64,000 nucleotides of DNA, from positions 1,223,927-1,287,926 of the forward strand of contig NZ_JACVQC010000001.1 in the NCBI RefSeq assembly GCF_018881505.1, written 5' to 3'. The notes beneath the pieces are model-generated. The model ran no database searches. It saw only the letters and a program-made list of their open reading frames with translations, and was not told where the DNA came from. Within the stretch, counting starts at the first letter, position 1. Each line of letters starts with the position of its first letter. Of this stretch, positions 16,815 through 25,301 are shown piece after piece. The position numbers and the translations under genes are program-made. The stretch is from Polynucleobacter sp. UK-Mo-2m-Kol15 (GTDB lineage: Bacteria; Pseudomonadota; Gammaproteobacteria; Burkholderiales; Burkholderiaceae).

Positions 16815-17309
16815 TTAATAAATGCTCGTGTGGCGGTATTTTTGGTCCCAAGCACTTTTATATACCGTGGTCATGCCAATCATGATTGATCCGGTCCAGG
16901 CTAATGAAAATAGCCCACAAAATGAGATGAAAAAAGCAAAGGATTTCCAGCCATCTATTAGGTTGTCTGATTCAAAGCCTACTGTTGTGTAGCAACTACC
17001 AGCAAAAAGAATAGCCTCAATAGGATCCTTCAACAAGCCTAAGGCAATGATGAAAACCGACCAAAATAATATTCCTAATAGGTGGAACATTGCCAGCAAT
17101 ACAAATGTGGCATAGAAATGGTAGAAGACGCGATTATATTGCCTTAACTTCAGATTTTGATGAGTTAAGCGCTCAAAGCGCATGAAGGCATGATTGATGG
17201 CACTGCCATGAAAGATCAAGGTGCAGATGAGGAGAAAAATTCCCCAGACTATATCTCTCAATAGTGGTAAAAATTGAAATCCAGAGAAAGCATTGATGAT
17301 ATTGTCCAT
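16815..17309 (-). CDS. Small ion-channel-like membrane protein (Ion_trans_2 type)
   Basis: 164-residue membrane protein with hydrophobic segments at about residues 18-36, 64-91 and 122-148. Before the last helix lies a short pore-helix-like stretch and the filter-like motif CYTTVGFESD (residues 106-115). This resembles the potassium channel pore signature TVGYGD, but the second filter glycine is replaced by Glu. The fold call (tetrameric two-helix-pore channel) is from this pore-loop pattern; ion selectivity cannot be assumed. No regulatory RCK domain is attached. It is divergent from the hydrolase at 17424. Confidence 0.75.
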   Translation of the reverse strand: MDNIINAFSGFQFLPLLRDIVWGIFLLICTLIFHGSAINHAFMRFERLTHQNLKLRQYNRVFYHFYATFVLLAMFHLLGILFWSVFIIALGLLKDPIEAILFAGSCYTTVGFESDNLIDGWKSFAFFISFCGLFSLAWTGSIMIGMTTVYKSAWDQKYRHTSIY

Positions 17310-18985: not shown

Positions 18986-19864
18986 ATGAAGAGTAAGCAG
19001 ATTGATCTGCACTCTCTCTTAAACTCATTTTTAGCTGTAGATGGTATAGCCTCATATTCTCAAAGCCTAGAAGAGGTATTTTCAGTGGTAGAACAAGAGG
19101 CCCACAGCATGCGGGACTTTCTTCAAGTACTAGTAAATACTAGCTTGTGGCAAGGTTGGGGTATAGCACCTAATCCCTATGAGGCAATGATTTTGACTGT
19201 AGGATCAGAAATTGATCGCTTAGCAACGCTGCTTCATGAGCCCGCCTTCCATTCTAAAAAACACATGATGGACGTGTGCTTGATGCTTTCTTATTTGTTA
19301 AGGCAAGAAGAGATTGGGGGTCATGAAGCAATTGGACCTCCTTGGCTAACTTCATCGACTGAAAAATGGCAACTCCTGCTTGCTGCAGCTGGGCATGATT
19401 TGGGTCATCCGGGTTTAATGAATGCCACTCCATACGAGTTAGAGCTTCAAAGCTTAGATTTGCTGAGAGCGCTTTTACTAAGACTTGATCAGGATGACGG
19501 TTTTATACCATCTGCCCTGGAATCTATTGCTCCATGGATTTTGGCAACCGATCATGGTCAATACCAAGCTCTATTGCACCGTCTAACCATTAATTCTCCA
19601 GATCATGTTGATTGTTTGGCAATGTTGTTGGTAGAGGCGGATCTAGCCTGTAGCGTACTTCCTATTAGGGGCCCATTGCTGACAAGTCGTCTCTGCGATG
19701 AATGGGCGGGGCCTTATCCTGAAAAATCGATTGCTCTTCGAAAGCAGGTAGGTTATCTTAGCTTCCTTGCTAGCCTGCAGTTTGTAAGCCCTCAGTCTGT
19801 CCATGCTGGTATCACTACAATCTTGCATAATTCTCTTTCACAACTTCGCACACGACTGTCATGA
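18986..19864 (+). CDS. Class-I-like 3',5'-cyclic nucleotide phosphodiesterase (HD fold)
   Basis: 292-residue protein with the signature of the animal-type class I phosphodiesterases. FHSKKHMMDV (residues 88-97) supplies the catalytic His89 and metal ligand His93; HDLGHPGLMN (137-146) supplies His137, Asp138 and His141; ATDHGQ is at 187-192; and EADLA carries a likely last metal ligand, Asp219. Such enzymes hydrolyse cAMP or cGMP to the 5'-monophosphate. No sensory domain is obvious; the first 60 residues are helical. The stop overlaps the next gene by 4 bases (ATGA), coupling it to a cyclic nucleotide-binding channel. The substrate is inferred to be cAMP from the adenylate cyclase encoded at 23554. 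Confidence 0.82.
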   Translation: MKSKQIDLHSLLNSFLAVDGIASYSQSLEEVFSVVEQEAHSMRDFLQVLVNTSLWQGWGIAPNPYEAMILTVGSEIDRLATLLHEPAFHSKKHMMDVCLMLSYLLRQEEIGGHEAIGPPWLTSSTEKWQLLLAAAGHDLGHPGLMNATPYELELQSLDLLRALLLRLDQDDGFIPSALESIAPWILATDHGQYQALLHRLTINSPDHVDCLAMLLVEADLACSVLPIRGPLLTSRLCDEWAGPYPEKSIALRKQVGYLSFLASLQFVSPQSVHAGITTILHNSLSQLRTRLS

Positions 19865-21312
19865 AGATCAACCACAATATTTTTTCCTTGCCCAAGACGG
19901 TGTATTGGCTATTAGTCTTAGTTAATATCGTTTATGCCTTTTGGCTTCAAAGTAACTTTGGATCATTCTTAGCATGGGACATTTCTGATTTAGCGGATTC
20001 CAAAACTGCAAGATTTGAAGATGTTGTGGCGATTGCCCAATTTTTAATATTTGCTGTGACGGTAGATATGTCTATTCGCCACTTTGTAGTCCGTTTTAAT
20101 CAGATAACTGAAGGCAATCAAGTTCCAGCCATTTTGGTACAGGCAGTAACCTTGCTTTGCTATGGCGTGATTGGATTGTTTGGTTTTATCGTGATGTACG
20201 ACCATTCTGCTGGACAGTTATTAGCAGCTTCGGGAGCAATTGGTTTTGGTATTGTCTATATCTTGCGTGAGGTCATTGCGGACGTTGTCGCTTGTATTCA
20301 AATCCAAACTGATGGCTTGATCAGCATTGGCGATCATATTGAAGTGAAGGGTGGCGACTACTACCAGATTGTGCAGATGGATCGTCGCATGGTGACTTTA
20401 AAAACGGTCCTGCAGTACATCGTTCGCGTTCCGAACCGCCGATTTATTAATCTCAATTACATCAACCTAACTAAGCAAAACCCTAAGATGGGCTCACGTC
20501 GGCGCTTGGAGATTGAGTTAGATTCAGGGAATGATGCTGATAGGATTATTGAGCTCATTAATCAGGCTGCCGACTATGTGGTGAAGACTGATTACAACTA
20601 TACCCCGTGGTATCGAGTTCGTTTAGCCAAGATTAACAATGGCTCTTATCTTTTTGCGCTGATTTATGAATGTGATCCCTCCTTGCCGCCCAACGGATCA
20701 AACAGCATTATGAATTTAGCTATTGCCCGCTTCTTTAAGTTGGGCGGTATCAATATGAACTCTACTGTTGAGGTTTTTAAGTCATCTGAAATTGTTGATA
20801 CCGTTAAGAGTCGCCTGAAGGATGTATATCGCCTGGGAGTTTTAAAGGCCTTGAGCGTGGATCAAGTCAGTCGCCTTGCAGATTCAGCACAGATCGTGAA
20901 CTGTCGTGCTCAGCACTTACTGATTGAAAAGGGCCATACTGCAGATAGTATGTTCATGTTGATTGAGGGCGGATTAGAAGTAACAATTCCAAATGATCAG
21001 GGCGAACAAGTTGTAGTTGCAACGATTTGGCCTGGCGATTGCGTGGGTGAGATGTCCCTGTTGACGGGTGAGCCCCGCTCTGCAAATGTTCGCGCAAAGA
21101 TCAATTCAACCCTGCTAGAAATTACCAAGGAAAATATCACCCCGATTTTCGAGTCTAATCCTGACTTAATTGATGAAATTTCCATCCTGCTTGAAAGGCG
21201 TAAGGGAATGAATCAAGAGCTTTTGAATAAGAATGTAGATCAAGAAGAGGCCCAAAAGAATATTAAGCTGTTGACTAAAAAGATTCTCAAATTCTTCTTT
21301 AACAAGGGCTAA
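19861..21312 (+). CDS. MscS-family channel with C-terminal cyclic nucleotide-binding domain
   Basis: 483-residue inner-membrane protein. Hydrophobic helices lie at about residues 11-30, 54-72 and 89-112, and the pore-lining MscS helix at 118-150 (AASGAIGFGIVYILREVIADV). The MscS beta domain follows (SIGDHIEVKGG, VRVPNRRFINL). A linker leads to a cyclic nucleotide-binding domain at about 325-440 with the phosphate-binding cassette GEMSLLTGEPRSA (396-408), whose Glu397 and Arg406 are the usual ribose and phosphate contacts. This is the layout of bacterial cyclic nucleotide-gated MscS (bCNG) channels. It is translationally coupled to the phosphodiesterase. Confidence 0.9.
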   Translation: MKINHNIFSLPKTVYWLLVLVNIVYAFWLQSNFGSFLAWDISDLADSKTARFEDVVAIAQFLIFAVTVDMSIRHFVVRFNQITEGNQVPAILVQAVTLLCYGVIGLFGFIVMYDHSAGQLLAASGAIGFGIVYILREVIADVVACIQIQTDGLISIGDHIEVKGGDYYQIVQMDRRMVTLKTVLQYIVRVPNRRFINLNYINLTKQNPKMGSRRRLEIELDSGNDADRIIELINQAADYVVKTDYNYTPWYRVRLAKINNGSYLFALIYECDPSLPPNGSNSIMNLAIARFFKLGGINMNSTVEVFKSSEIVDTVKSRLKDVYRLGVLKALSVDQVSRLADSAQIVNCRAQHLLIEKGHTADSMFMLIEGGLEVTIPNDQGEQVVVATIWPGDCVGEMSLLTGEPRSANVRAKINSTLLEITKENITPIFESNPDLIDEISILLERRKGMNQELLNKNVDQEEAQKNIKLLTKKILKFFFNKG

Positions 21313-21553
21313 CCCCAGTCAGGACCTTACTGGTCCGAGCCTCACTGTAATATAGGGCATGCCCCGGTTTTTCTATTGCCTGATTACAAAATCTATGAAA
21401 AGAGTGCAAATACCCTTTTTGGGGCTTAGAGCAGGTATTCCCATGAAAATTTGTTACTATCAAAGCATGAAAGAAGTCACTATTGCCTCTTTAAAGTCGG
21501 CCTAATAATAAATCCAATCCAAAACTAGTTTCTTAACCTTTTTTTAGGAAGTT
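21313..21553. other. Gap between channel and cheB
   Basis: 240 bases without a gene. It holds a small hairpin, GGACC-N5-GGTCC (21322-21336), and a palindrome, GGGCATGCCC (21355-21364), followed by CGGTTTTT, which could act as a weak terminator for the phosphodiesterase-channel pair. The AT-rich remainder can hold a promoter for cheB. No coding frame was supported. Confidence 0.35.
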
Positions 21554-22720
21554 GTGGAAAAAGTACGCGTTCTTATTGTTGATGATTCTGCGGTAATGCG
21601 AAAAATCATCGCTAGCGCTTTGCAGAAAGAGCCTTCTATTGAGATTGCCGGTTTTGCTGCTAATGGCTTGCAGGCAATCGAGGCAATACAAACTTGTAAT
21701 CCCGATGTGGTTACCCTCGATATTGAAATGCCAGAGATGGATGGTCTGACGGCTTTACGAGAGATACGCAAAAGCAATAAGTATTTACCCATCATTATGT
21801 TTAGCTCTTTAACGCACAATGGGGCTCAAGCAGCAGTCATGGCGCTCACAGCTGGCGCAAGTGACTATGTCGGCAAGCCTGCAAATGCTAACGGCGGTAT
21901 TGACGATGCTTTTAAGGTTTTAGAGCATGAACTCATTCCTAAGATTATTGGTTTAGCTAAGCGTGTGAAATCGCGAAGAGATAGAGAGGGGAGGGCTGCC
22001 AGTTCGCAAAGACCACTTACTGCTACAGCTACATTGAGCCCCTCGGTCTCCACTAAGTCTTTGGCACCAACTACAACCATTCCCCCACTAGCTTCAAAAG
22101 TTGTTAAGGTCACATCAGGTTTATTGGCAAAACCAGCACAAGCAGTTTGTATTGGTGTTTCTACTGGCGGCCCCGAGGCTCTGATGCAACTTTTTGGTGG
22201 GTTCAACGCCTCTCTTAGCGTGCCGATTTTTATCGTGCAGCATATGCCCGCAGAATTCACGAAATTACTTGCTGCTCGCTTAAGTGCCACAGGTGTGATG
22301 ACGTTCAAAGAAGCAGAAGAAGGGGAGATTGCAGCCCCTGGAATGGTTTACATTGCACCAGGCGGCTTTCATATGACCCTATCGCGGCTCGGAACTAAAA
22401 CAATTATTCATCTCAATACCGAGCCTCCGGAAAATTCATGTAGACCAGCTGTGGATGTCCTTTTTAGAACGGCGGCAGATGTCTATAGTGGCGGCCTTCT
22501 AGCAGTTATGCTCACTGGCATGGGGTATGATGGACTAAAGGGCTCGCAAATGATTAAGGAAAAAGGTGGGCAGGTTATCGCTCAGGATGAAGCAACTAGC
22601 GTCATTTGGGGTATGCCTGGGGCTGTAGTGCAGGCAGGATTGGCGGATGGGGTTCTACCGATCGATAAGATGGCTGATGAAATCATTTTTAGAACTCGTA
22701 AAGTTCCAGTCAGTCGATAG
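21554..22720 (+). CDS. cheB: Chemotaxis-type protein-glutamate methylesterase CheB
   Basis: Response regulator that demethylates or deamidates receptor glutamates. It has an N-terminal receiver domain with Asp10/Asp11 and phospho-acceptor Asp56 (TLDIEMP), a Ser/Thr/Pro-rich linker at about 140-195, and the methylesterase domain with Ser203 (GVSTGGP), His230 (QHMPAEF) and Asp326 (GYDG), a complete catalytic triad. The start is GTG 21554 with AGGA a few bases upstream. cheR follows after one base. No CheA, CheW, CheY or receptor gene is in the window, so this is an isolated adaptation pair beside an adenylate cyclase. Confidence 0.94.
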   Translation: MEKVRVLIVDDSAVMRKIIASALQKEPSIEIAGFAANGLQAIEAIQTCNPDVVTLDIEMPEMDGLTALREIRKSNKYLPIIMFSSLTHNGAQAAVMALTAGASDYVGKPANANGGIDDAFKVLEHELIPKIIGLAKRVKSRRDREGRAASSQRPLTATATLSPSVSTKSLAPTTTIPPLASKVVKVTSGLLAKPAQAVCIGVSTGGPEALMQLFGGFNASLSVPIFIVQHMPAEFTKLLAARLSATGVMTFKEAEEGEIAAPGMVYIAPGGFHMTLSRLGTKTIIHLNTEPPENSCRPAVDVLFRTAADVYSGGLLAVMLTGMGYDGLKGSQMIKEKGGQVIAQDEATSVIWGMPGAVVQAGLADGVLPIDKMADEIIFRTRKVPVSR

Positions 22721-22721
22721 C

Positions 22722-23552
22722 ATGTCAAAACAATATCTACCGCAGTTTTATACAATGTTAGAGCAGCAGGTAGGAATTGCTTTAGATGACACCAAGCAGT
22801 ATTTGCTGGAGTCCCGTTTAATGCCGATTGCGCAACAAAAAGGTCTTCCAGATGTCTATGCCCTGATTAAGCTCTTAACGCAGAGTCCTTTAGGCTCATT
22901 ACATTGGCAAGTATTTGAAGCATTGACAACAAATGAGACTTCATTCTTTCGGGATAAACACGTATTTGAAGCTTTGCGAACATCGATTCTTCCGGAGCTC
23001 ATTGAGCATCGTAAAAAAGATAGAACTTTACGCATCTGGAGTTCAGCGTGTTCTGCTGGTCAGGAGGTCTACAGCCTAGCAATGATGTTGAGAGAAGATT
23101 TCCCGATGCTACATGATTGGACCATCTATCTTCAGGCGACAGATATTTCTGAGTTAGTCCTAGCGAAGGCTAAGTCTGGAATCTATAGCTCGATGGAGGC
23201 TCATCGTGGCCTTAATGATCATTTCCTGCATAAATATTTTGAAAGCATTGAGAAAGGCGCCTTTCAGATCAAACCATCTATACGTCAAATGGTCAATTTT
23301 TCTCATCATAATTTAGTAGGGGATTGGCCGTTTTATCCTAAATTTGATCTGATATTACTCAGAAATGTACTGATTTATTTCAAACAGGATGCAAAAGATA
23401 AGGTGTTATCTAAGATGCAGCAACACTTAAACGGTGGCGATAGTGTGTTGATTTTGGGTGCCGCTGAATCGATCTACCTCAATGATTTATACAAATTAGT
23501 CGCGCTTGATAAGATTTCTTATTATAAATCTAATACTCTTATTAAGGTCTGA
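22722..23552 (+). CDS. cheR: Chemotaxis-type protein-glutamate O-methyltransferase CheR
   Basis: SAM-dependent methyltransferase for receptor glutamates, the counterpart of CheB. The 276-residue protein begins at ATG 22722, one base after the cheB stop; the frame is open further upstream but only within cheB. Motifs are TTNETSFFRD, the SAM-binding SACSAGQEVYSLAM, ATDIS, and RNVLIYF. There is no C-terminal TPR extension. Its stop is one base before the adenylate cyclase start, so cheB-cheR-cyclase form a tight operon. Confidence 0.94.
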   Translation: MSKQYLPQFYTMLEQQVGIALDDTKQYLLESRLMPIAQQKGLPDVYALIKLLTQSPLGSLHWQVFEALTTNETSFFRDKHVFEALRTSILPELIEHRKKDRTLRIWSSACSAGQEVYSLAMMLREDFPMLHDWTIYLQATDISELVLAKAKSGIYSSMEAHRGLNDHFLHKYFESIEKGAFQIKPSIRQMVNFSHHNLVGDWPFYPKFDLILLRNVLIYFKQDAKDKVLSKMQQHLNGGDSVLILGAAESIYLNDLYKLVALDKISYYKSNTLIKV

Positions 23553-23553
23553 T

Positions 23554-24693
23554 ATGGAAAACCAAAGCATTCCTCCTGCGTCACCAGTAATTGAGATTGA
23601 CCCAGTATTTGCTGCATTTTCTGTTCTGGTAGTAGATGACAGTAGAACTTTGCGTAAGATCCTCATCCGAGAGTTGAACTCTTTGGGATTCCATAATATT
23701 TTAGAAGCAGCTGATGGTCTTGAGGCTATTGAGGTTGTTAAGACTAAGTCTGTTGATTTGATGCTCTTGGATATGGAAATGCCTGAACTCGATGGCTTAG
23801 GAGTCTTAGGCCAGCTCAAGGCAAATGACGCTTATAAGGCATTGCCTATTATTGTGATATCTGGCGCAGATCAATTTGAAAAAACAATTAAATGTATTGA
23901 AATTGGTGCTGAGGATTATTTGCCCAAGCCATTTGACCCCATTCTTTTGCGCGCCCGTATTTTTTCTTCTCTTGAGAAAAAGCGTCTACGTGATTTAGAT
24001 CGCAAACACTTAGAAATGCTGAACCAAGAAAAGCAATTGCTTGAGATAGAGCAAATGAAAACAGAAAAGCTGATGCTCAATATTCTTCCTAGACCTATTG
24101 CGGAGAGATTAAAGCGCGGAGAGAAGAATATTTCAGGGAGCTACCCAGATGTCACAATTCTATTTAGTGACTTAGTGGGCTTTACAAAAATGTCCTCCAA
24201 AACTACAGCAACTGATTTGGTGAGACTATTGAATGATTTATTCACCCGTTTTGATATACGTGCAGAAGCTTTGGGTTTGGAAAAAATTAAGACCATTGGA
24301 GATGCTTATATGGTAGTAGGGGGTCTTCCCATTCCGCGCCCCGATCATGCCGCCCTTTGTGCAGAGATGGCTTTAGGAATGTTTGAAGATCTCCAGAATT
24401 TCAATCAAGAAAATAATGCTGAACTCAATATGCGTATTGGTATGAATTCAGGCCCAGTAGTTGCTGGAGTCATTGGGTTTACTAAGTTTTCCTATGACCT
24501 TTGGGGTAATACTGTGAATACAGCCAGTCGGATGGAATCTACCTCTCAGCATGGACGGGTTCAGGTATCCCCTAGTACATATGAGGCTCTCAAGGATCTC
24601 TATGATTTTGAGGATGCTGGTCTAATGGAGTGCAAGGGGCTAGGAGAAATCCGCACCTACTTGCTTGTCGGCAAAAGATCCCATTTAGCCTGA
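23554..24693 (+). CDS. Response-regulator adenylate cyclase (receiver + class III cyclase)
   Basis: 379-residue soluble protein. A receiver domain at about 21-140 carries Asp28/Asp29 and phospho-acceptor Asp73 (LLDMEMP), with KPF at 125-127. A helical linker at about 140-175 leads into a class III cyclase domain. Metal ligands are Asp206 (FSDLVGF) and Asp250 (GDAYM), and the transition-state pair Asn322 and Arg326 is in WGNTVNTASRMES. The base-specifying residues are Lys246 (EKIKTIG) and Asp315 (SYDLWG), which select ATP; guanylate cyclases have Glu and Cys there. It therefore most likely makes cAMP under phosphorylation control. The start ATG 23554 is one base after cheR. Confidence 0.92.
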   Translation: MENQSIPPASPVIEIDPVFAAFSVLVVDDSRTLRKILIRELNSLGFHNILEAADGLEAIEVVKTKSVDLMLLDMEMPELDGLGVLGQLKANDAYKALPIIVISGADQFEKTIKCIEIGAEDYLPKPFDPILLRARIFSSLEKKRLRDLDRKHLEMLNQEKQLLEIEQMKTEKLMLNILPRPIAERLKRGEKNISGSYPDVTILFSDLVGFTKMSSKTTATDLVRLLNDLFTRFDIRAEALGLEKIKTIGDAYMVVGGLPIPRPDHAALCAEMALGMFEDLQNFNQENNAELNMRIGMNSGPVVAGVIGFTKFSYDLWGNTVNTASRMESTSQHGRVQVSPSTYEALKDLYDFEDAGLMECKGLGEIRTYLLVGKRSHLA

Positions 24694-24749: not shown

Positions 24750-25301
24750 ATGTCTGAGAATGTAAATCATTCGGAACTTACGCCAGATCAATCTGGGCGT
24801 ATTGAGGTTTTTGTAGAGAAGTTGATTTTTAGAAGTCGTTGGATTTTGGCTTTTTTCTATCTCATCTTAGTGGCTACCTTGGGATTGGTGGCAATAAAAT
24901 TTGCCAAAGAATTTATGCACTTTGCATCTATCTTTTGGAATGCTTCTGAGGCTGAATTTGTGACGGGTGTTCTTGCTATTGTCGATAAGACTTTGTTAGG
25001 TAACTTATTGATTTTGATTATTTTCTCTGGATATGAAAACTTTGTTTCTATCATTGGTGCTGCTAAATCTAGCGCTGATCGACCAAAGTGGATGGGGGGA
25101 GTGGATTTTGCTAGCCTAAAGTTAAAGTTAATTGGCTCTATTGTTGCTTTATCGGGCATCAATCTTTTGGCAGCATTCTTGGAAATTGAAACTACCAATA
25201 AAGAGAATCTTGGTTGGATGGTGGGTATTCATATTACCTTTGTCGTAACTGGCTTGATATTTGCTCTCTCAGAGAGATATATGGTTCACGAAAAAGAATG
25301 A
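24750..25301 (+). CDS. YqhA family (UPF0114) membrane protein
   Basis: 183-residue inner-membrane protein with hydrophobic helices at about 31-51, 85-103, 128-146 and 157-176. The segments ERIEKLIFRSRW-like (here VEKLIFRSRWIL), DKTLLGNLLILIIFSGYENFVS and WMGGVDFASLKLKLIGSIVALSGINLL match the UPF0114/YqhA family, whose function is not established. It is 56 bases after the cyclase, on the same strand, and may belong to that operon. Confidence 0.88.
   Translation: MSENVNHSELTPDQSGRIEVFVEKLIFRSRWILAFFYLILVATLGLVAIKFAKEFMHFASIFWNASEAEFVTGVLAIVDKTLLGNLLILIIFSGYENFVSIIGAAKSSADRPKWMGGVDFASLKLKLIGSIVALSGINLLAAFLEIETTNKENLGWMVGIHITFVVTGLIFALSERYMVHEKE

Follow-up and report, generated by a model that had tools for sequence, protein, structure and literature searches.

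The five genes described here probably constitute the output half of a chemosensory pathway devoid of CheY, in which an adenylate cyclase would act as the response regulator, a phosphodiesterase as the cAMP sink and a channel bearing a cyclic-nucleotide-binding (CNB) domain as the readout. They lie on the + strand at positions 18986-24693 of the window, i.e., the 64,000-nucleotide stretch of the Polynucleobacter sp. UK-Mo-2m-Kol15 genome that was analysed, and their key residues are intact. In order, they encode a 292-aa class I (PDE4/PDE7-fold) cyclic-nucleotide phosphodiesterase (PDE; 18986-19864), an MscS channel with a CNB domain (19861-21312), a 388-aa CheB with receiver and methylesterase domains (21554-22720), a 276-aa CheR methyltransferase of methyl-accepting chemotaxis proteins (MCPs) (22722-23552) and RR-AC, a 379-aa protein combining a receiver with a class III adenylate cyclase (23554-24693). 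The original prediction had assigned these same domains, and Pfam matches uphold every assignment: PF00233 (PDEase_I, 36.9 bits, above the 24.8 cut-off) for the PDE, PF00924 (MS_channel_2nd, 38.1 bits) and C-terminal PF00027 (cNMP_binding, 68.6 bits) for the channel, PF01339 (207.9 bits) and PF00072 (92.5 bits) for CheB, PF01739 (198.6 bits) and PF03705 (CheR_N, 32.7 bits) for CheR, and PF00072 (98.0 bits) and PF00211 (Guanylate_cyc, 211.5 bits) for RR-AC. CheB is also recognised by NCBIfam NF001965 (400.1 bits, cut-off 293). Phosphotransfer, the direction of regulation, the preferred nucleotide, channel gating and physiological purpose are what we infer from these sequences.

The tight spacing noted earlier holds for the PDE and MscS genes, which overlap by 4 bp, and for CheB/CheR and CheR/RR-AC, since CheR begins 1 bp past the end of CheB and the RR-AC ATG (23554) sits 1 bp past the end of CheR, but not for MscS and CheB, which are 241 bp apart. 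A longer RR-AC frame opens at TTG 23506, which is not a likely start. Downstream, a gene on the + strand encodes a UPF0114 membrane protein (24750-25301; PF03350, 104 bits), a common neighbour of the cassette that follows RR-AC in L039, L040, L042, L043 and L058-L061 and adjoins PDE-MscS in L081, a locus without che genes. Scans for promoters (9 matches versus 15.3) and terminators (5 versus 6.0) returned fewer matches than shuffled sequences did.

Two relatives carry an uninterrupted eight-gene run, PDE-MscS/CNB-MCP-CheA-CheW-CheB-CheR-RR-AC. The 241-bp gap separating MscS from cheB in the window (21313-21553) was compared by blastn with eight chosen loci. Bases 104-206 of the gap align with the L039 stretch that separates MscS from the start of the MCP gene (5.6e-11), and bases 196-241 align with the L039 junction where CheW ends and CheB starts (6e-4). 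Judging from these alignments, the gap is the deletion scar of a lost MCP-CheA-CheW block, the leader of the lost MCP (~21416-21518) being joined to the old CheW/CheB junction (~21508-21553). The five genes thus derive from a larger cassette and, consequently, the "compact circuit" initially proposed is not a natural unit; as a candidate unit, the five-gene array is ruled out by the scar, which marks a derivative state.

The window genome nonetheless encodes all core components, MCP, CheA, CheW, CheB and CheR, split over two sites. MCP, CheA and CheW map to C10:1013217-1017689, ~228 kb from the window genes. CheA and the separate CheW have one match each in this genome; CheA contains Hpt, H-kinase_dim, HATPase and two CheW domains and no receiver (Pfam), and the MCP carries a four-helix sensor. 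Compared with G286/G295, the output module is highly similar (95% identity for RR-AC, 86/85% for CheB and 86/81% for CheR) whereas the sensor module is not (46% for CheA, 41/40% for MCP and 33% for CheW), and the present CheA/MCP/CheW module instead resembles that of G282 (83/82/75%). By sequence identity, the sensor module was replaced and the output module retained. Mirror-tree correlations, which mostly reflect common ancestry, serve here only for the discord of CheA and MCP.

RR-AC combines receiver and Guanylate_cyc domains in one protein (Pfam) and is thus a multidomain response regulator whose output domain is an enzyme. Lys246 and Asp315, originally singled out as ATP-selecting residues, are correctly placed when numbered from ATG 23554. 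Along with D206, D250, N322 and R326 of the catalytic domain and D28, D29, D73, S103 and K125 of the receiver, they are invariant in all 32 full-length orthologues of the genus. We take D206/D250 to be the metal-binding aspartate pair, K246/D315 the base-recognising pair and N322/R326 the Asn/Arg pair. RR-AC, which is predicted to make cAMP from ATP, is the sole class III cyclase match in the window genome. Relatives of the cyclase whose receiver has diverged (G356, G335) or is missing (G206) do not adjoin CheA, CheB, CheR or CheW according to our neighbourhood filter.

The neighbourhood of RR-AC is highly conserved within the genus: CheR lies directly upstream on the same strand in 32/32 full-length orthologues, and CheA lies within 13 kb in 23 of the 26 that have at least 4.5 kb of upstream sequence. 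No CheA was found nearby in three loci, that of the window among them, despite their long flanks. A search of the order detected RR-AC in 10 of 399 genomes, two belonging to Polynucleobacter; che genes are missing from the stretch taken in at least three (G747, G434, G529) of the eight RR-AC-like genomes outside the genus. Among the 32 genomes with full-length orthologues, six were chosen to be searched for a stand-alone CheY, and none has one. All 13 receiver matches of the window genome belong to larger proteins, and all 52 in the five other carriers occupy frames no shorter than 211 aa, the 30 checked extending at least 88 aa past the receiver. Of 12 carriers chosen from the same 32 for a FliM search, 8 gave no match. 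Because of the CheR/CheA synteny, the lack of a stand-alone CheY and the missing FliM, RR-AC is very probably the output of the chemosensory system. The earlier proposal that chemosensory phosphorylation controls cAMP is thus well supported, by synteny, scar, sensor-module exchange and the failure to find a stand-alone CheY in any of the six carriers searched. In such a pathway, the distant MCP receptor and CheW would control the CheA kinase, which would phosphorylate the RR-AC receiver, thereby altering cAMP synthesis, as well as the CheB receiver; CheB together with CheR would reset the receptor. The class I PDE would clear cAMP, the CNB domain of the channel (or, in some relatives, a CNB-only protein of 185 aa) would sense it, and a chemical signal would ultimately alter ion or solute flux through the MscS-type channel.

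The metal ligands of the putative sink, H93, H137, D138 and D219, presumed to form the metal site, are complete as originally described and, with H89 and H141, invariant in 12/12 aligned homologues. The AlphaFold model (pLDDT 91.8) has class I PDEs as closest folds, namely PDE7A (Z 23.3 over 265 residues) and PDE4D (Z 23.1); the protein is predicted to hydrolyse cyclic nucleotides. The position of Q254 presumably corresponds to the purine-selecting glutamine of class I PDEs. The substrate of the wider family is uncertain, since Q254 is kept in only 4 of the 12 aligned sequences, those of the window protein and three relatives. The single protein retrieved homologues in 2 of 200 genomes of the family, window genome included, and an alignment search detected the PDE in 43 of 186 genomes of the genus, three of them weakly (G258, G269, G341; E ~1e-11 to 1e-13). 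Scanning named genomes with the alignment gave 27 loci, among which L118 is labelled Cytophagaceae, and taken for a misbinned contig, and L127 Thioalkalivibrio (a weak match); the PDE is rare beyond the genus.

The CNB cassette of the channel is likewise intact: E397, R406 and S407 of the phosphate-binding cassette are invariant in 10/10 aligned channels. The AlphaFold model of the channel is too weak to draw on (pLDDT 74.7, pTM 0.39). Gating by cAMP, as first suggested, is plausible and less firm than chemosensory control of cAMP, the channel being present in at least 14 and the PDE in at least 13 of the 32 RR-AC loci, both lower bounds owing to short contigs. These two genes belong to the cassette more loosely than the others. 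A bolder reading, which we hold to be possible and short of probable, likens the whole to animal olfaction: a CheY-less array would drive an adenylate cyclase, cAMP would gate an MscS-type channel and a PDE4/7-fold enzyme would reset it. The window genome would then have one recognised class III source of cAMP and, in the channel, its only recognised CNB target, and the arrays of carriers lacking FliM would control membrane flux instead of swimming.

The main competing explanation, which we consider unlikely, accepts that RR-AC sets cAMP and holds that the channel serves as a valve, osmotic or modulated by cNMP, that has only the neighbourhood in common, the main cAMP targets lying elsewhere (the CNB-only protein, pilus machinery). 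Besides being found in under half of the RR-AC loci, the channel and the PDE also occur without RR-AC: no RR-AC match was obtained in 23 of 51 channel-bearing and 17 of 43 PDE-bearing genomes of the genus, counts that may overstate true absence because some of these assemblies are fragmented (e.g., a G332 contig ends in an MCP gene). The place and strand of the channel gene vary (upstream in L039, downstream in L046, L047 and L065), and the CNB-only protein replaces it in four RR-AC loci. In Pseudomonas aeruginosa, moreover, the control that the Pil-Chp system exerts on CyaB takes effect through Vfr and pili, according to the part of PMC5812489 available to us. Against a mere valve, the channel alone among the three CNB matches of the window genome has a GE..R motif (by eye), the 4-bp PDE/MscS overlap recurs in L039-L041, and the PDE and CNB genes remain paired where the cyclase differs, as in G270, where the pair adjoins a dCache_3-bearing cyclase, and in G254, where it adjoins a cyclase-like frame.

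That RR-AC also fills the place of CheY, with its receiver, once phosphorylated, acting on the flagellar switch and cAMP being secondary, appears quite improbable. The window genome, which has no stand-alone receiver, does possess a flagellum, with FlhA and a FliM whose N-terminus, LSDKEIDALL, we take to resemble the CheY-binding motif of FliM, so that another output besides RR-AC is possible there; the G074 cassette also adjoins flagellar genes (named by eye). However, in addition to the 8 of 12 carriers in which FliM is missing, the FliM proteins of G074, G275 and G245 are without such a motif, and CheY substitution is therefore not a general role. A flagellar chemotaxis operon was ruled out on the missing FliM of these 8/12 carriers, and a Pil-Chp type system on the absence of stand-alone receivers from the window genome. 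As for chance neighbours in a small genome with no joint function, the predicted five-gene order was indeed found, among 186 genomes, in only two others, G282 and G354 (whose contig starts inside the PDE), and the PDE is scarce outside the genus, yet this explanation is very hard to reconcile with the invariable CheR-AC adjacency, the repeated occurrence of PDE, channel or CNB genes alongside the cassette in several orders, the scar, and the co-occurrence of the cyclase with PDE (26/38) and MscS (28/38) across 186 genomes of the genus (Fisher p ~1e-11, kinship ignored).

With its MscS beta-domain and C-terminal CNB domain, the channel is similar to the bCNG proteins of the MscS superfamily, reportedly described as channels by Caldwell in 2010 and Malcolm in 2012; here, the gene accompanies cyclase, PDE and chemosensory genes. 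We found no account in the open-licence literature of a natural input for bCNG-type channels, of a Polynucleobacter adenylate cyclase, or of a receiver-cyclase output coupled to a class I PDE and a cNMP-gated channel. If the pathway outlined above is true, chemoreceptor arrays, known for controlling flagella, pili and c-di-GMP, would also set ion-channel opening via cAMP, with every step of the cascade encoded in one transferable cassette. The bCNG-type channels would gain a physiological input, and the chemosensory system retained by Polynucleobacter carriers without detected FliM (8/12) would have a role. Bacteria would offer a compact model of a receptor-cyclase-phosphodiesterase-channel cascade, the cassette being a possible parallel to animal smell.

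Known systems share parts of this arrangement. The CHASE2-adenylate cyclase clusters of Campylobacterota also encode a cyclase and a cAMP phosphodiesterase together, with a CHASE2 sensor and FecR-domain and TPR partners; the portions of PMC9239204 at hand mention neither chemosensory genes nor a channel. A chemosensory kinase controls cAMP in the Pil-Chp/CyaB system of P. aeruginosa as well, where, in contrast to the receiver-cyclase fusion described here, PilG and PilH are stand-alone regulators and the cyclase they act on is a distinct protein (PMC5812489, in part). A REC-nucleotidyl cyclase as the output of a chemosensory cluster is already in print: the sections of PMC3447774 available to us list REC-mononucleotidyl cyclase regulators, i.e., receivers fused to an adenylate/guanylate cyclase domain, as outputs of CheR-TPR clusters, and those sections mention no PDE or channel partner, while the present CheR has no TPR. 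The closest parallel is the Wsp system of Pseudomonas (ACF type; WspA, WspB/D, WspE, WspF, WspC, WspR), in which chemosensory proteins feed a response regulator that makes a cyclic nucleotide (PMC5812489 and PMC3447774, both in part). Wsp differs in that its output is a diguanylate cyclase instead of a class III adenylate cyclase; here, moreover, CheA has two CheW domains and no receiver, CheR is without TPR (Pfam), and a phosphodiesterase and a CNB channel accompany the cassette in part of the loci. Both systems nevertheless run from receptor, CheW, CheA, CheB and CheR to a regulator with a cyclic-nucleotide-making output, as far as the same portions of these two sources describe Wsp. RR-AC is encoded with the core genes in relatives, whereas the window retains CheB, CheR and the scar of the rest, and it is very probably a cAMP counterpart of Wsp.

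The five genes of the original prediction were confirmed at 18986-24693, in the order, strand and spacing claimed: a class I cyclic-nucleotide phosphodiesterase (PDE, 18986..19864), an MscS channel with a cyclic-nucleotide-binding (CNB) domain (19861..21312), CheB (21554..22720), CheR (22722..23552) and a receiver-adenylate cyclase (RR-AC, 23554..24693), all on the forward strand. The tight packing ascribed to them holds for PDE and channel (4 bp overlap), CheB and CheR, and CheR and cyclase (1 bp spacing each), but not for channel and CheB, whose 241 bp gap is the sole break in the run. By family score, active-site residues (invariant in 12/12 aligned homologues) and predicted fold (structure model of pLDDT 91.8, matching PDE7A and PDE4D with Z 23 over >260 residues), the PDE is, as predicted, a class I enzyme with an intact active site. 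Its cyclic-nucleotide substrate is putative, because glutamine Q254, which we take to be the purine-selecting position, is present in the window and kept in only 4 of the 12 homologues. The catalytic residues of the cyclase and the phosphorylation residues of its receiver, to which we assign their presumed roles, are kept in 32/32 orthologues. The channel combines an MscS beta-domain with a CNB domain bearing E/R/S residues, presumably cAMP contacts as in CRP.

A search of 186 genomes of the genus with RR-AC yielded 39 matches in 38 genomes, and all 39 loci were inspected. CheR lies directly upstream of RR-AC in each of the 32 full-length orthologues (each at least 67% identical), CheB is present at 29 of these loci, the remaining three having <1 kb of upstream sequence, and CheA occurs within 13 kb at 23 of the 26 whose upstream sequence reaches 4.5 kb or more; no CheA was found within 13 kb in the window genome, G327 and G235. 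The PDE, the channel and a CNB-only protein accompany at least 13, 14 and 4 of the 32 loci, respectively, contig ends making these lower bounds; in G314 the PDE is on a separate contig that breaks off in the channel gene. Of the seven other matches, one (G317) is a fragment at the edge of a contig and six are diverged relatives (G356, G335, G206, G323, G284 and a second in G312), near which the locus filter found no CheA, CheB, CheR or CheW, some of these contigs being short; that of G206 lacks a receiver. Across the 186 genomes, the cyclase overlaps with the PDE in 26, with the channel in 28 and with both in 19 (Fisher p ~1e-11, uncorrected for relatedness). A PDE in 17 genomes and a channel in 23 that have no RR-AC match are evidence against a strict circuit. 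In two of these 17 (G270 and G254), the PDE adjoins a CNB-only gene and the pair runs divergently from a different cyclase-like gene, whose product in G270 is 666 aa long and carries a dCache_3 sensor (loci L087:7284-10859, with the dCache_3 cyclase, and L088); such loci are taken to carry the same cAMP module under a different sensor. A contig labelled Cytophagaceae (L118), with PDE and CNB 64% and 82% identical to those of Polynucleobacter G074, is probably misbinned.

The relatives G286 and G295 carry, on a single strand, the larger cassette PDE-MscS/CNB-MCP-CheA-CheW-CheB-CheR-RR-AC-UPF0114, of which MCP (chemoreceptor), CheA and CheW are missing from the matching place in the window. When the 241-bp gap was compared by blastn with 8 chosen loci, 21416-21518 matched L039, a relative's locus with the uninterrupted cassette, between MscS and the MCP start (5.6e-11), and 21508-21553 matched its CheW/CheB junction (6e-4). 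Because the gap joins an MCP-leader match to a CheW/CheB-junction match, the window array is read as a deletion derivative of the larger cassette. The five-gene order of the window recurs in G282, with an MCP(-)/CheA/CheW block directly downstream, and in G354, on a short contig beginning inside the PDE. The leader shared with L039 (21416-21518) may hold a promoter now driving cheB-cheR-RR-AC; a promoter scan gave no match within it. The membrane protein gene UPF0114 (24750-25301, +) trails the cassette, and also adjoins PDE-MscS in G285 (L081), at a locus without che genes.

Within its 2.18 Mb, the window genome has one class III cyclase match, one CheA, which carries two CheW domains and is adjoined by an MCP gene, and one further CheW; MCP, CheA and CheW lie ~228 kb from CheB. 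Against G286/G295, identity is 95% for RR-AC, 85-86% for CheB, 81-86% for CheR, 74-75% for the channel and 66% for the PDE, whereas it falls to 46% for CheA, 40-41% for the MCP and 33% for CheW; against G282, CheA, MCP and CheW are 83%, 82% and 75% identical. This contrast points to a receptor-kinase module of a different type, with CheB, CheR and the cyclase kept, and is read as evidence that the kinase module would have the cyclase as its lasting target. Elsewhere in the window, a 164-aa membrane protein (16815-17309, -) has no Pfam match, and its SCYTTVGFE stretch resembles, by eye, a two-TM potassium-channel filter.

FliM was found in only 4/12 carriers tested, all 12 being at least 90% complete. 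None of the 13 receiver domains of the window genome is stand-alone (they lie in CheB, RR-AC, proteins with at least 89 residues after the receiver, or hybrids), nor was a stand-alone receiver found in five other carriers, where every one of the 52 receiver matches falls in a frame of 211 aa or longer (30 were checked and have at least 88 residues after the receiver; 22 were assessed by frame length alone). Since stand-alone receivers are absent from the tested carriers and FliM occurs in only 4/12, a CheY-driven flagellar role cannot be general among them. FliM of the window genome (L136, C10:1714623-1715192) keeps an N-terminal LSDKEIDALL, which we take to be similar to the CheY-binding motif, though the genome has no stand-alone receiver; no such N-terminal motif is present in FliM of G074, G275 and G245. 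FlhA shares only 48% identity between the window genome and G074 (L008, L100), which suggests two flagellar types in the genus; in G074 the cassette adjoins flagellar genes. RR-AC is the best candidate output of CheA, a role paralleled by WspR as the output of WspE (PMC5812489).

As to the cAMP target, the window genome has three CNB matches, one being the channel. The other two are a 205-aa regulator and one named by eye as FNR-like; since both, by eye, lack a GE..R motif, the channel is the only recognised cAMP-type CNB target in that genome. Gating of the channel by cAMP is a proposal, as are the sign of the effect and the kind of ion or solute that would pass.

In the order, 10/399 genomes passed a 1e-60 threshold with RR-AC, eight of them outside the genus. 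G496 and G591, from other families, each have an RR-AC (50-52% identical) clustered with stand-alone receivers, MCP, CheR, CheB, CheA and a gene resembling the PDE (31-32%; the G591 copy scores 21.1 bits, under the Pfam cut-off of 24.8); the G591 cluster also encodes a protein bearing three CheW domains. Such larger clusters (L170 and L172, the latter with the triple-CheW protein) include a small PAS-like protein (by eye). The short contig of G602 encodes an MCP along with a small receiver protein, and other receiver-like frames adjoin the match in G683 and G500; in G747, G434 and G529 no che genes were found in the stretch taken and the match covers the cyclase part only. The receiver-cyclase/chemosensory association hence extends past Polynucleobacter in another architecture, with some relatives lacking it.

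In the open-licence literature searched, we found no account in which a chemosensory receiver-cyclase is coupled to both a cNMP-gated MscS channel and a class I PDE. ACF-like chemosensory clusters are listed with REC-mononucleotidyl cyclase regulators among their outputs (PMC3447774), Pil-Chp is already established as a chemosensory system that controls cAMP (PMC5812489), and bCNG channels are already described; the effector arm would be novel if shown.
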